64,000 bases of DNA, taken from an uncultured Pelagibacteraceae bacterium. Lineage in GTDB: Bacteria > Pseudomonadota > Alphaproteobacteria > Pelagibacterales > Pelagibacteraceae. Positions within the stretch are counted from its first letter, which is position 1, and the number at the start of each line of letters is the position of its first letter. A program made the position numbers and the translations under genes. The notes below the pieces were generated by a model. It did not search any database, was not told where the DNA came from, and worked only from the letters and a program-made list of their open reading frames with translations. Shown in pieces: positions 5,457-11,078 of the stretch. The stretch spans positions 75,196-139,195 of the forward strand of contig CABXTC010000001.1 in assembly GCA_902515095.1 (NCBI GenBank), read 5' to 3'.

Positions 5457-5717
5457 ATGATTTTCGAAATAGACAAATTTAAAAAAAGACTTTTATACAG
5501 ATCTCAATATCGGGGCACAAAAGAAATGGACAAATTAATTGGATCTTTTGTTAAAGATAAAATAAATACCTTTAACAAAGAAGAATTGATTGAATTAGAA
5601 AAATTTTTAGAAATAGATGACGATAATCTTTATAAATTCTACAATAATCAGATTTCACAAATAGACCAGAACGATAATAAGATTTTAAATTTATTTAAAG
5701 ATTATATATACAAATAA
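5457..5717 (+). CDS. sdhE: succinate dehydrogenase assembly factor 2 / SdhE-like
   Basis: Small protein with RLLYRSQYRGTKEMDKLIGSFV (RGxxE motif), divergent from recG. Confidence 0.85.
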   Translation: MIFEIDKFKKRLLYRSQYRGTKEMDKLIGSFVKDKINTFNKEELIELEKFLEIDDDNLYKFYNNQISQIDQNDNKILNLFKDYIYK

Positions 5718-5721
5718 AATA

Positions 5722-5811
5722 TGGCGGAGAGACTGGGATTCGAACCCAGGAAAGAGTTGCCCCTTTGCCGGTTTTCAAGACCGGTGCTTTCAACCGCTCA
5801 GCCATCTCTCC
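5722..5811 (-). tRNA. tRNA-Ser(UGA)
   Basis: Reverse complement GGAGAGATGGCTGAGCGGTTGAAAGCACCGGTCTTGAAAACCGGC...TCTCTCCGCCA; anticodon TGA, long variable arm, encoded CCA. Confidence 0.95.
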
Positions 5812-5885
5812 GTGAGCAAGGTTTTATAAGTATAAATTTTAAATTCAACAAAAAAACAGAACATATATAAAAAAAAAATTTAACC

Positions 5886-5909
5886 TTTCGTTAGAGTTTC
5901 GTTAGAGTT
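5886..5909 (+). repeat. tandem 11-mer (TTTCGTTAGAG)x2 + TT, left copy
   Basis: Identical 24-nt block at 7616-7639. Confidence 0.9.
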
Positions 5910-5965
5910 ATCCTATAAAAACCAATAAAAAAAAAGATAATAGCTAATATCAATTATTTAAAAAT

Positions 5966-6568
5966 ATGATTTTTTTCTTAAGATTAATTAAAATTTTGTT
6001 AATTCTAAATTTGATCTGCAATATATCAATAGCAGAAAAGTCATATCAAGAGTGTGATGGAAATATATCTAATCTTACAAAATTTTCAGTCAAACATTAT
6101 AAGAAAGTAAGAAAATGGACTGAATGTTTTGGAAAAGGAGTTGGTCCCAATGGAGCAACTTATATTGGTGAATTCAAAGATGGAAAATTTCATGGCAAAG
6201 GAATCTACACTCATGAAGGTAGAGAGTATAATGGTAATTGGAAAGAAGGAAAAAAATTTGGTTTTGGAGTATATACTTATAGTAATGGAGATAGATTTGA
6301 GGGTAACTGGATTAAAAGCGAGTATGATAATAATGGAAAATATATTTATTCAAATGGAGAAATGTACATCGGTGAGTGGAAAAAAGATAAATATAACCAA
6401 CCTGATAATGGAAATGAAAAACATGGCAAAGGTACATTTTTTTATTTAAATGGAGATGTATATTCAGGTTATTGGAAAAATGGTTTAAAACATGGCAAAG
6501 GTGTTCTTACAAAGTCCGACGGTACTAAAATTAAAGGTAAATGGAAAAAAGGAAAAATAAAAAAATGA
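5966..6568 (+). CDS. MORN-repeat protein with signal peptide
   Basis: Repeated YxGEFKDGKFHGKG / YNGNWKEGKKFG / YSGYWKNGLKHGKG units. Confidence 0.92.
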   Translation: MIFFLRLIKILLILNLICNISIAEKSYQECDGNISNLTKFSVKHYKKVRKWTECFGKGVGPNGATYIGEFKDGKFHGKGIYTHEGREYNGNWKEGKKFGFGVYTYSNGDRFEGNWIKSEYDNNGKYIYSNGEMYIGEWKKDKYNQPDNGNEKHGKGTFFYLNGDVYSGYWKNGLKHGKGVLTKSDGTKIKGKWKKGKIKK

Positions 6569-7119
6569 ACAAATCATTGTTAAAATTTTTATCTAATGTA
6601 GGACCACTAGCAATATTTTTATATATTTATTATGATAGTGAAAAAAGTTTAACTACTGCATTGCCACCTTTAATTATTGCAACAATTTTAGCTGTCGGTT
6701 TAGTGTGGATTGTTGAAAAAAAAATTGCTTTTATACCTCTAATAGGTGGTTTTTTTATTGCTCTATTTGGTAGTTTAACAATTTATTTTGATAATCCAAT
6801 TTTTATTTATATGAAACCAACTATTGTAAATATTTTAATTGGTTTACTTTTAATTTTTGGAGGATACTTCTCGAAAGAGCCAATGCTTAAAAAAATAATT
6901 GGTGATAAAGTTCCAATGACAATTGAAGGTTGGAAAATATTTAATAACAGATGGGTAGTTTTAGTTTTTTTTCTAGCTCTGTTAAATGAAATTGTATGGA
7001 GGACACAATCAGAGGAATTTTGGGTTAATCTAAAAGTATGGGGTAGTCCAGTAATAACGGCAATCTTTTCGTTCTTTCAAATAAAACTTGTAAAAAAGTA
7101 CAGATTGAAGAAAGTTTAG
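6565..7119 (+). CDS. yciB: inner membrane-spanning protein YciB / intracellular septation protein A
   Basis: Multi-TM protein with FNNRWVVLVFFLALLNEIVWR...EFWVNLKVWG family signature; ATGA overlap with MORN gene. Confidence 0.85.
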   Translation: MNKSLLKFLSNVGPLAIFLYIYYDSEKSLTTALPPLIIATILAVGLVWIVEKKIAFIPLIGGFFIALFGSLTIYFDNPIFIYMKPTIVNILIGLLLIFGGYFSKEPMLKKIIGDKVPMTIEGWKIFNNRWVVLVFFLALLNEIVWRTQSEEFWVNLKVWGSPVITAIFSFFQIKLVKKYRLKKV

Positions 7120-7120
7120 A

Positions 7121-7396
7121 TTAAAGATTTTGTAGCTTCATGCAAATAAAAGGGTCTTCACCATTTGCTTTTAAAGCCTCTTTAATTGCTGTTCTATTTG
7201 GAACTCTTCTTTTTTTTTTCCAGTATCCAACTTCTTTCCACATTGCACAGACTTCGTCTAAATCTAGACCTCTATAATGTCTGACAAGTTCACTATGTGG
7301 TGCATGTTTGTACCAAAAAGTAGTTCCTTCCTTAAAAGCATAAGAATTTCCTTGAAGAAAAAAAGTAAAAAAAAATACAAACAAAATTTTTTTCAT
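7121..7396 (-). CDS. small secreted hypothetical protein
   Basis: 91-aa ORF with N-terminal signal peptide (MKKILFVFFFTFFLQGNSYA). Confidence 0.65.
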   Translation of the reverse strand: MKKILFVFFFTFFLQGNSYAFKEGTTFWYKHAPHSELVRHYRGLDLDEVCAMWKEVGYWKKKRRVPNRTAIKEALKANGEDPFICMKLQNL

Positions 7397-7404
7397 AAAG
7401 TTAT

Positions 7405-7476
7405 TTATTCAGTATATTGCACGAGTGCCCATATCGCTAAAAATATAAATACTCCTGCTAGTTCTGCTCCTGTCAT
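7405..7476 (-). CDS. 23-aa single-TM small protein (MTGAELAGVFIFLAIWALVQYTE)
   Basis: ATG preceded by AGGAG at canonical spacing; ends 8 nt before the 7396 start; not in supplied ORF track. Confidence 0.6.
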   Translation of the reverse strand: MTGAELAGVFIFLAIWALVQYTE

Positions 7477-7615
7477 TATTAACTCCTGTTTTTTTTTAAG
7501 TTTCCTTTACAGATTATAATTAATTTTATGTTATGAAAAGTATAATGTTTAATATATATACGCATTTTTTTTGATTTATTAAAAAAAATTCAATTATAAG
7601 TTTTCAATTTATTAA

Positions 7616-7639
7616 TTTCGTTAGAGTTTCGTTAGAGTT
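7616..7639 (+). repeat. tandem 11-mer (TTTCGTTAGAG)x2 + TT, right copy
   Basis: Identical to 5886-5909. Confidence 0.9.
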
Positions 7640-7755
7640 TTGTAGTTTAGGCAGGACAATAATGATGCGTTTTTCGTAAAAGCTAAATTTCAAAAAATAA
7701 GTAATGACTTGATAAGTATGTGAATCGTCGTAAAAGGGGTAGGGGTTACTTGGAA

Positions 7756-7794
7756 TTTCAAGACCGGTGCTTTCAACCGCTCAGCCATCTCTCC
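7756..7794 (-). pseudogene. partial tRNA-Ser(UGA): 5' half up to end of anticodon loop
   Basis: Exact match to the tRNA-Ser 5' half at 5773-5811; 3' half absent. Confidence 0.9.
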
Positions 7795-7940
7795 GTGTGC
7801 TAGGTTTTATAAGTATAATGTTAAATATCAACAAAAAAACTAAGCTAAATTTTTATGAATTTGAGTAATTAGTAATAGTCTTTCATATAAAAATGTTTAA
7901 TCATTCAGTAAACATACAAACCTGAGATCATTCTTTAATA

Positions 7941-9203
7941 ATGAAGTACGATTTTTTAAAAACTTATAATGTAATATTAATATTTATAACGCTTTATATT
8001 TCACTTATAGTTGGTTTTTTTTTTGATGAAAACTTAAACCTGGGTGCTAAACCAGATTGGTATTTTGGTGATATACCAGTTATAGAGGCTTTATCTGTAG
8101 ACTTAAAAAAAACTTTCATTAACTATGATATGTATGGCCATCGACATTCGCCAGTATATTTAATTTTTTTAAGTTTTTTGAAAAGTATTGGTTTTGATTA
8201 TGATTTAATTAGATTTATCCATCTCAATATATCTATTTTATTAATTTATTTTTTTTTCAAATGTTTATCATTTAAATTCGACAATATTGAAAAAAAAATA
8301 CTGTTAATTTTTTCATTTTCAATCTTTTTATCACCAACCTTTAGATCTTTAGCAATTTGGCCAGATACAAGAATAATTGGATTATTATTTTTTGTAATTT
8401 CTATATTAGAATTCTTAAAATATTTAAGATACAAGAAAAAAATATATATATGGAAAAATACAATTTTTTTAATCTGTTCGTCATATATAAGTCCTAATTT
8501 TTCTCTATTCATAATCTTTTTCGCATATCACTATTTAAAAGAAAATAATTTCAAAGATTTATTTTTTTTATATATTTTTTGTTTAGCTAGTTCTTTGCCC
8601 GTTTTTTATTATATATTCATATTAGATGTAAATTTTTTAATGGTAAACACGCCAGGTGAAATTACTGGTGAAAATATAAGCTTAAGTTTTAACATTTCAG
8701 ACAAAATACTTATTATAAGTAGTATTATATTATTTCACTTAATTCCTTTTCTTTTAAATAAAAATTTTTTCTGCGAAATAATTAAAAATCTAAAAAAAGA
8801 TCTTTTGATTGTTAGTTTTATATTTGTAATTCTTATATATTTTTTTAATTATCAGATTAATTTTACTGGGGGTGGAATTTTTTTTCAATTTTCACATTTC
8901 ATTTTCAAAAACAATGTCCTATTTTATATAATTAGTTTCATATCTTTAATTTTATTATTTTCTTTTGTAAAAGATAATTTAAATAATTTTCTTATTTTTT
9001 CTATTCTAATTATTTCTAATGTACAAAATTCAATTTATCACAAATATTATGATCCACTCATGATGATATTATTTTTCTCTGTAATTATCATTCCTAGTAG
9101 TTTGAGATTTTTTGATAAAAAAAATAATATTTTTATAATCTATGCTTTTTATATTCTTTATATCATTTCAAGAATATTCAAAAATAATCTTTTAAGTTTT
9201 TAA
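7941..9203 (+). CDS. uncharacterised multi-pass membrane protein
   Basis: 420-aa ORF with ~10 hydrophobic segments; superficially like dolichol-type glycosyltransferase membrane proteins but no motif recognised. Confidence 0.75.
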   Translation: MKYDFLKTYNVILIFITLYISLIVGFFFDENLNLGAKPDWYFGDIPVIEALSVDLKKTFINYDMYGHRHSPVYLIFLSFLKSIGFDYDLIRFIHLNISILLIYFFFKCLSFKFDNIEKKILLIFSFSIFLSPTFRSLAIWPDTRIIGLLFFVISILEFLKYLRYKKKIYIWKNTIFLICSSYISPNFSLFIIFFAYHYLKENNFKDLFFLYIFCLASSLPVFYYIFILDVNFLMVNTPGEITGENISLSFNISDKILIISSIILFHLIPFLLNKNFFCEIIKNLKKDLLIVSFIFVILIYFFNYQINFTGGGIFFQFSHFIFKNNVLFYIISFISLILLFSFVKDNLNNFLIFSILIISNVQNSIYHKYYDPLMMILFFSVIIIPSSLRFFDKKNNIFIIYAFYILYIISRIFKNNLLSF

Positions 9204-9211
9204 ATCTACTT

Positions 9212-10090
9212 ATGAACGAAAAATTCAATAAAGGTTTACTTCTGACATCTCTAGGATCTTTTTGGTGGGGCTTTGTTGGAGTTATATATTTTGAAATGGT
9301 TACCTTTATTGGACACATAGAGTTAGTCGTTCATAGATGCTTATGGACTGCCGTAATGTTAATCTTAACTACTTTTTTTTTAAAAAAATGGAAAACTTTT
9401 TTAAAAACAATTTCAAATAAAAATAATCTTTTTTATCTTTTTGTTTCAGGATTATTAATTTTTATAAATTGGGCAATTTGGATTTATGCAGTAGCTACCA
9501 ATAGAATTATTGATGCAAGTTTTGGATACTTTATAATGCCTATCATAAGTGTACTTTTGGGGTATATATTTTTTAAAGAAAAACTGAATCAAAAAAGAAT
9601 TTTTTCCGTAATTTTGGTGCTTGTTTCAATTCTTTTTATGGTTTTTATAAATATTAAAGCTCTTCCTTGGGTAGGATTAATAGTCGCTTTAAGTTGGGCT
9701 TTTTATAATTTAGTTAGAAAAAAAATCAATGTTGATACAGATATTGGTCTTTTAGTTGAAAGTTTATATATTTTCCCTTTTGCACTAGCTGTTTTTTATT
9801 TTATTGCATCAAAAGGTTTAAACGATTTTAGTTTAGACAATCCTGGTTTAAGTTTATTTCTTTTATTAGCAGGACCAATGACAGTGATTCCTTTGTTCTT
9901 ATATGTAAGGGGAGTTGAATTAATTGGCCTAGGAGCTACAGGTATGATTTTTTATATTACACCTACATTACAGTTTATTTTAGGCTATTTTTTTTATAAT
10001 GAAGAATTTTCTTTAATTAAATTAGTGAGTTTTATTATTATCTGGATTGCTGTAATCATATATCTTAAAGATCTTTATGAAACTAATTAA
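9212..10090 (+). CDS. rarD: EamA family transporter RarD
   Basis: GSFWWGFVGVIYF, HRCLWTAVML, FINWAIWIYAVATNRIIDASFGYFIMPI RarD signature. Confidence 0.92.
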   Translation: MNEKFNKGLLLTSLGSFWWGFVGVIYFEMVTFIGHIELVVHRCLWTAVMLILTTFFLKKWKTFLKTISNKNNLFYLFVSGLLIFINWAIWIYAVATNRIIDASFGYFIMPIISVLLGYIFFKEKLNQKRIFSVILVLVSILFMVFINIKALPWVGLIVALSWAFYNLVRKKINVDTDIGLLVESLYIFPFALAVFYFIASKGLNDFSLDNPGLSLFLLLAGPMTVIPLFLYVRGVELIGLGATGMIFYITPTLQFILGYFFYNEEFSLIKLVSFIIIWIAVIIYLKDLYETN

Positions 10091-11078
10091 TTTAATATTT
10101 TTCTTATTTTTATTTCTCACAGTAAATAGTTATTCAGATGAAAATATCAATTTCGATAAATGGAAAAAAAATTTTAAAGATATTGCACTTAAAAATGGCA
10201 TATCTGAAAAAACTTTTGATATAACTATGCGAAATGTAAAATTTTTGCCAAAAGTGATTGAATATGATCGTTTCCAACCTGAATTTTACGAAGATACAAA
10301 AACTTATATTTCAAAAAGGACTTCTAACAAAAAATTAAAAAAAGGATTAGATTTTTATAGTAACAATATTGATTTAATAAATATAATTGAAAAAAACTTC
10401 CAAATAGAAAAAGAATTACTTTTGTCTTTAATGGGTATCGAGACCAACTTTGGTACTTATGTTGGAAAAATGGATATTTTATCATCTCTAGCTACTTTAA
10501 GTTATGACAAAAGAAGATCTGATTTTTTTTCAAATGAACTTTTAATTCTTTTAAGATTGGTTGATAATAATATAATTGATTATAAAACGCTTTACGGATC
10601 TTGGGCTGGTGCTTTTGGTTTTTTTCAATTTATGCCATCCACAATCAAAAATTATGCATTTGATTATAACAGAGATAATTATATTGATCTAAAAAATTCT
10701 GAAGATGCTTATGCATCAGCTGCAAATTATTTGAACAAAATTGGATGGAAGAAAGATGACCATTGTTTTAAAAAGATTGAATTGAGTGAGGATATTCCTA
10801 TAAAATTTTTGAATGTTTCAGCTAAAAAAATTCATAGTAAAAAAAAAATTAGATTATTTAAGAAATATATAAAAAATTACTCTGATCTTGGTATTAAAAA
10901 TGAAAATCAAAAAATTGCAATAGTGACCCCAGATAAGGATATAATACCAGATGCACTAACTTTGAGCCCTGCATACATAGTTTTTGATAATTATGAGATA
11001 ATTCTTAAATGGAATAGATCTTTAAGATTTGCTCTAGCCGTATGTACTTTAAAAAACAAGTTTAAAAATGAAATTTAA
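10077..11078 (+). CDS. mltB: lytic murein transglycosylase (MltB family)
   Basis: LLSLMGIETNFGTYVG, YGSWAGAFGFFQFMPSTIKNYAFDYNRD motifs. Confidence 0.92.
   Translation: MKLINLIFFLFLFLTVNSYSDENINFDKWKKNFKDIALKNGISEKTFDITMRNVKFLPKVIEYDRFQPEFYEDTKTYISKRTSNKKLKKGLDFYSNNIDLINIIEKNFQIEKELLLSLMGIETNFGTYVGKMDILSSLATLSYDKRRSDFFSNELLILLRLVDNNIIDYKTLYGSWAGAFGFFQFMPSTIKNYAFDYNRDNYIDLKNSEDAYASAANYLNKIGWKKDDHCFKKIELSEDIPIKFLNVSAKKIHSKKKIRLFKKYIKNYSDLGIKNENQKIAIVTPDKDIIPDALTLSPAYIVFDNYEIILKWNRSLRFALAVCTLKNKFKNEI

Follow-up and report, generated by a model that had tools for sequence, protein, structure and literature searches.

The cis-mobilizable elements (CIMEs) of streptococci, which derive from conjugative elements, are bounded by att sites, carry no recombinase and accrete in tandem. 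Clusters of attC sites lacking an integron integrase (CALIN), i.e., integrase-less arrays of integron cassettes, and miniature inverted-repeat transposable elements (MITEs) are non-autonomous as well, providing recombination sites only and relying on an enzyme supplied in trans (PMC11389934). The tDNA islands collected by Islander are bounded by a tRNA gene and a fragment of it, cross over at the anticodon, regenerate the tRNA and form tandem arrays; 159 of the 3919 islands (4%) are of the 5′-fragment type, and candidates without an integrase or shorter than 2 kb are discarded (PMC4383910). Tycheposons occupy tRNA sites of marine streamlined hosts by means of a tyrosine recombinase and occur in satellite and cargo forms (PMC10872708, PMC11389934). 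Here, we describe a cassette inserted at tRNA-Ser(UGA), positions 5773–7797 of a stretch of 64,000 nucleotides (the window) from an uncultured Pelagibacteraceae bacterium (assembly GCA_902515095.1, contig CABXTC010000001.1, positions 75,196–139,195), and compare it with these systems.

Like CIMEs, the cassette belongs to a family that is att-bounded, lacks a recombinase and accretes in tandem; unlike CIMEs, no conjugation genes were seen in the cassettes here. Like CALIN and MITEs, it would depend on an enzyme acting in trans, provided that our reading is correct, but the ends found here are attP-like sites in a tRNA gene, as opposed to the attC sites or terminal inverted repeats of those systems (no search aimed at attC was made), and the cargo is multigene (PMC11389934). 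As in Islander islands, an intact tRNA is accompanied by a correctly placed fragment of the same orientation. However, this is a 5′ fragment located upstream of the tRNA, the element contains no integrase gene, and it is under 2 kb, so that the Islander filters reject such cassettes (PMC4383910). In contrast to tycheposons, it has no tyrosine recombinase of its own, uses the 5′ half of the tRNA and belongs to elements with paired arm sites of many types. We consider the segment to be a non-autonomous, site-specifically integrated cassette moved in trans by the integrase of a satellite, with a probability of roughly 0.78. The features of the locus are as follows.

5457–5717, plus strand: sdhE-like gene, the left host anchor, with a homologue in the corresponding position in nearly all relatives
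5722–5811, minus strand: intact tRNA-Ser(UGA) (ARAGORN); by the excision test, 3′ half from the host and 5′ half from the element
5773–5814, no strand: left core (att), exact 42-nt repeat containing the 7-bp anticodon loop TTTCAAG (5773–5779)
5812–5857, minus strand: element-borne, presumed tRNA promoter region of left-end type, within the repeat (left-end versus host score +20.9 bits)
5886–5907, plus strand: left arm sites, (TTTCGTTAGAG)x2, +113 from the core start
7616–7637, plus strand: right arm sites, (TTTCGTTAGAG)x2, −140 from the core start
7702–7755, plus strand: conserved right-end block TAATGACTTGATAAGTATGTG...GGGGTTACTTGGAA, from the alignment of 24 right ends
7756–7797, no strand: right core (att), partial tRNA-Ser, from the repeat match
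9212–10090, plus strand: EamA-family gene, the right host anchor, about 110–150 bp past the last core in nearly all relatives

The boundaries proposed in an earlier note, made from the sequence alone, held up on re-examination. The 42-nt copies at 5773–5814 and 7756–7797 are identical and in the same orientation, and the similarity seen to continue toward the upstream side of the tRNA amounts to a direct repeat of 85 nt with 92% identity. The left copy lies inside the complete tRNA, and the right copy starts exactly at the 7-nt loop TTTCAAG, the limit of the partial copy having been correctly placed at the anticodon loop. Nor did we find an integrase in 5773–7797, either among the open reading frames (ORFs) or by searches for PF00589 and for relatives of a 558-aa integrase described below. 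The single PF00589 gene of this genome lies outside the element, and no relative of the 558-aa integrase was found in the genome (G000). A second repeat, overlooked by the note, resides just inside both ends and consists of the 11-bp unit TTTCGTTAGAG in tandem. Nowhere else in the genome does the tandem occur, and the single unit has four matches in the window versus 0.95 expected. The attP sites of tyrosine integrases have the order arm-core-arm. Both ends of the cassette hold what appear to be complete attP halves, and on a circle their order would be arms, conserved block, core, arms, which is the same layout.

In-silico joining of 5772 to 7756 gives back an identical 90-nt tRNA. The empty site predicted by the note exists in six genomes without the partial tRNA, where the core is followed by EamA at 121–148 bp. 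At this site, the six genomes have neither arms nor MORN nor yciB. The YciB protein of the cassette scores 149.5 bits versus 194.6 bits for the ordinary copy on contig C7, and this genome alone among 121 has two yciB matches. Because of the empty sites, the extra divergent yciB and the restoration of the tRNA by excision, 5773–7797 is best understood as a site-specifically integrated cargo element. The note had suggested an integrated cargo element or a remnant; integration stands, but instead of an isolated remnant we find a member of a recurring integrase-less family with intact paired arms.

The recurrence became apparent from a search of 399 genomes of the same genus with a degenerate core pattern, copy numbers being counted by hand from the table. 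The tRNA-Ser core occurs in 260 of them, 20 of which have at least two copies. Identity with the tRNA starts at TTTCAAG in 23 of 24 right cores, after a stretch of element type, e.g., GGGGTTACTTGGAA; the remaining core (G124) is decayed, with 7 mismatches. The 5′-half duplication, thought to be unusual, is indeed so among tDNA islands overall (PMC4383910) but is the rule among the Pelagibacter elements found here. At the tRNA-Ser loci examined, the arms reside 111–113 nt past the left core start and 137–140 nt before the right one, an arrangement and spacing that recur in about 20 genomes. Their sequence differs from element to element (e.g., TTTACTTCAAG, TTTGTCTCAAG and TTTGCTTCTAG), whereas the two ends of one element agree. 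In an automated comparison of elements with a tandem at both ends (17 of 20 for tRNA-Ser), the arms matched within the element in all 17 (2000 shuffles: mean 6.4, maximum 12). Comparable tandems occur in 0.7% of random 50-nt windows. A hand-compiled comparison found identical hexamers in 18/21 cases (maximum of 8 in 20000 shuffles).

The same architecture is found at tRNA-Leu(UAA), where 49 of the 110 genomes with a match have at least two core copies and all 21 scorable of 32 elements have matching arms (shuffles: mean 4.2, maximum 11); these loci were picked for multiple copies, so the element counts there are not frequencies. On contig C9 of the genome studied here (L087:1452-12506), two tRNA-Leu(UAA) 5′-half cores are separated by 11 kb; their right-end arms differ, and the tRNA-Leu itself is outside the part retrieved. 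A third tRNA is used alike: 5′-half duplications of tRNA-Gly(GCC) bound elements with PF00589 integrases of about 316–320 aa in G124 (contig C5, L066:4064-12493) and G180 (contig C3, L067:6259-12399). Three tRNA-Ser elements form a tandem array in G171. In G132 (L036:7282-7572), one arm pair lies between two cores at a spacing of 251 bp. Deletion of the cargo through recombination between arms would produce this layout, which is possibly the scar of such a loss.

At least one cassette has spread horizontally. A cassette encoding an NB-ARC protein is 92.7% identical over 3948 bp between AG-343-L02 and AG-453-P15, whose backbones share 73.1% identity, and the identity switches at the core; in a third genome, the cassette shows 87–88% identity versus 77.9% for the backbone. 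The ORFs of the tRNA-Ser elements classed as integrase-less included no recognisable integrase. A 9-kb element of G326 at the same tRNA-Ser encodes a 558-aa integrase (PHROG, 6.5e-15; missed by Pfam), a primase (5.9e-30), a helix-turn-helix (HTH) protein whose Pfam match stays below threshold, and a protein resembling RusA. Relatives of this integrase occur in 6 of the 399 genomes, including G326 itself, and those of G120 and G168 belong to elements located at the tRNA-Leu(UAA) 5′ half. Integrase-bearing elements share arm types with integrase-less ones: G326 (tRNA-Ser) with G341 and G132, G120 (tRNA-Leu) with G110 and G022, and G168 (tRNA-Leu) with G027. This sharing lends indirect support to mobilization in trans. 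The satellites with an integrase and a primase may belong to the tycheposon kind.

Viral sequences offered no further candidates. Relatives of the G326 integrase were absent from the viral contigs and phage records searched, and both matches to the tRNA-Ser 5′ half in viral contigs were T4-like phages with a whole tRNA, not att sites. The right-end search of phages returned unrelated tRNA-Ser genes only. Occurrences of the arm motif in a GC-rich viral contig, Paenibacillus, a gammaproteobacterial metagenome-assembled genome and Ruminococcaceae were judged to be due to chance. Across the genus, the PF00589 genes are mostly a single Xer-like gene per genome.

In the mechanism that we propose, the circular cassette would carry a complete attP consisting of two arm repeats, the conserved block, the 7-bp overlap with the tRNA 5′ half and promoter, and two further arm repeats. 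Acting in trans, a tyrosine integrase would insert the circle at the tRNA-Ser(UGA) anticodon loop. The 5′ half and promoter brought in by the cassette would then complete the tRNA again, and the 5′ half pushed aside would mark the far end. The restored site could accept further insertions, and cassettes would thereby pile up at the 5′ halves of tRNAs. Phage-satellite-like elements are the probable helpers; they encode a divergent tyrosine integrase of about 550 aa, use the same tRNA site and have arm sequences in common with the cassettes. Cassettes of this kind are widespread in the genus, often with anti-phage genes, and probably rely on the integrases of satellites that are less common.

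Several observations weigh against this mechanism. None of the integrase-bearing elements found has TTTCGTTAGAG arms, the G168 integrase contains one stop codon, and in G326 and G120 the right-hand arms do not form clean tandems. By hand comparison, the arms at the two ends are unlike in the second G326 element and in G276. Arm types were compared by sequence only, and movement is likewise read from the DNA, no circular or excised form having been observed; we infer arm binding, catalysis in trans, excision and the existence of a helper with TTTCGTTAGAG arms.

The cassettes could also be decayed autonomous elements, namely satellites or prophages that lost their integrase after insertion and are now immobile. 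Islands often lose integrases, and some decay is visible in the G124 core and in a truncated second element in the window. Even so, we consider this unlikely: both arm sets remain matched, one cassette without an integrase has been shared recently between genomes of 73% backbone identity, and integrase relatives are found in 6/399 genomes versus duplicated cores in 20/260 (Ser) and 49/110 (Leu). Still less probable is the spread of cassettes by ordinary homologous recombination between the conserved tRNA and the host flanks, an integrase having acted long ago only. Pelagibacter recombines much, and the tRNA and the ends offer short homology. However, the switch from 73% to 93% identity falls at the core and not within the flanking genes, and both the tandem array and the matching of the arms call for site-specific joining. 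Finally, a local duplication in tandem, with part of the tRNA copied and unrelated genes lying between the two copies, would fit the direct repeat but is hardly credible in view of the paired arms, the conserved right end, the recurrence with different cargo, the empty sites and the extra yciB.

The right copy at 7756–7797 is probably also the left end of the truncated second element, which would extend to about 9203.

7798–9203, plus strand: probable second element, composed of a left end (7798–7843, from the left-end score) and a gene for a 420-aa membrane protein (7941–9203, absent at this locus elsewhere); right end lost

The sequence after 7797 scores +18.9 bits as an element left end, against about −30 to −34 for the nearest two empty sites. 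Between the right core and EamA there are 1456 bp, compared with the usual distance of about 125 bp, and this interval contains the 420-aa gene. We take the left-end-type score and this displacement to indicate a probable second element that has lost its right end. The 420-aa protein has no Pfam match; its gene was not found at this locus in other genomes, and relatives (30–62% identity) are located elsewhere in 28 of 100 other genomes. The element's own arms are not recognisable. It is no more than probable because the host-side sequences of G222, G180, G008 and G276 likewise score positive as left ends.

The cargo of the cassette comprises three annotated ORFs, and the MORN and yciB assignments of the earlier note were confirmed by Pfam (PF02493, 1.9e-23, and YciB/IspA PF04279, 9.7e-44, respectively).

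5966–6568, plus strand: MORN-repeat protein of 200 aa (PF02493), secreted-looking, the signal peptide being judged by eye
6568–7119, plus strand: YciB/IspA septation-family membrane protein (PF04279), an extra divergent copy besides the ordinary one elsewhere in the genome
7121–7396, minus strand: 91-aa ORF without a Pfam match

Other cassettes carry type I restriction-modification, PLD-helicase with type IIG, MmeI-type and type III systems, NB-ARC STAND ATPases, and an HNH nuclease. The tRNA-Ser cassette of G381 (L027, oriented 7782-10580) encodes a diacylglycerol kinase, a metallophosphoesterase and a glycosyltransferase, a combination that recalls phosphate-stress lipid remodelling. One contig (L019, AG-909-P05, 5088 bp) is almost exactly one cassette, with arms, hsdM-hsdS-hsdR and arms; its ends may reflect a circle or a break at a repeat.

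The literature searched on SAR11, tRNA sites and integrase-less islands yielded no account of such a system; the search did not extend to the original papers on tycheposons and marine satellites. Whether the cassettes constitute a genus-wide integron-like system, in which a short arm code addresses each stacked cassette to one of many satellite integrases and which serves as a main route for trading anti-phage defences and nutrient genes, is in our estimation an even bet. The arm code predicts which helper pairs with which cassette, and island finders demanding an integrase or a 2-kb minimum would miss such cassettes. SAR11 bacteria, to which Pelagibacter belongs, are among the most abundant in the ocean and have very small genomes with few known mobile elements. 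At one tRNA, about 45% of the genomes having the site show duplicated cores, and a family of enzyme-less cassettes with defence and other genes would offer a concrete route for gene trading.
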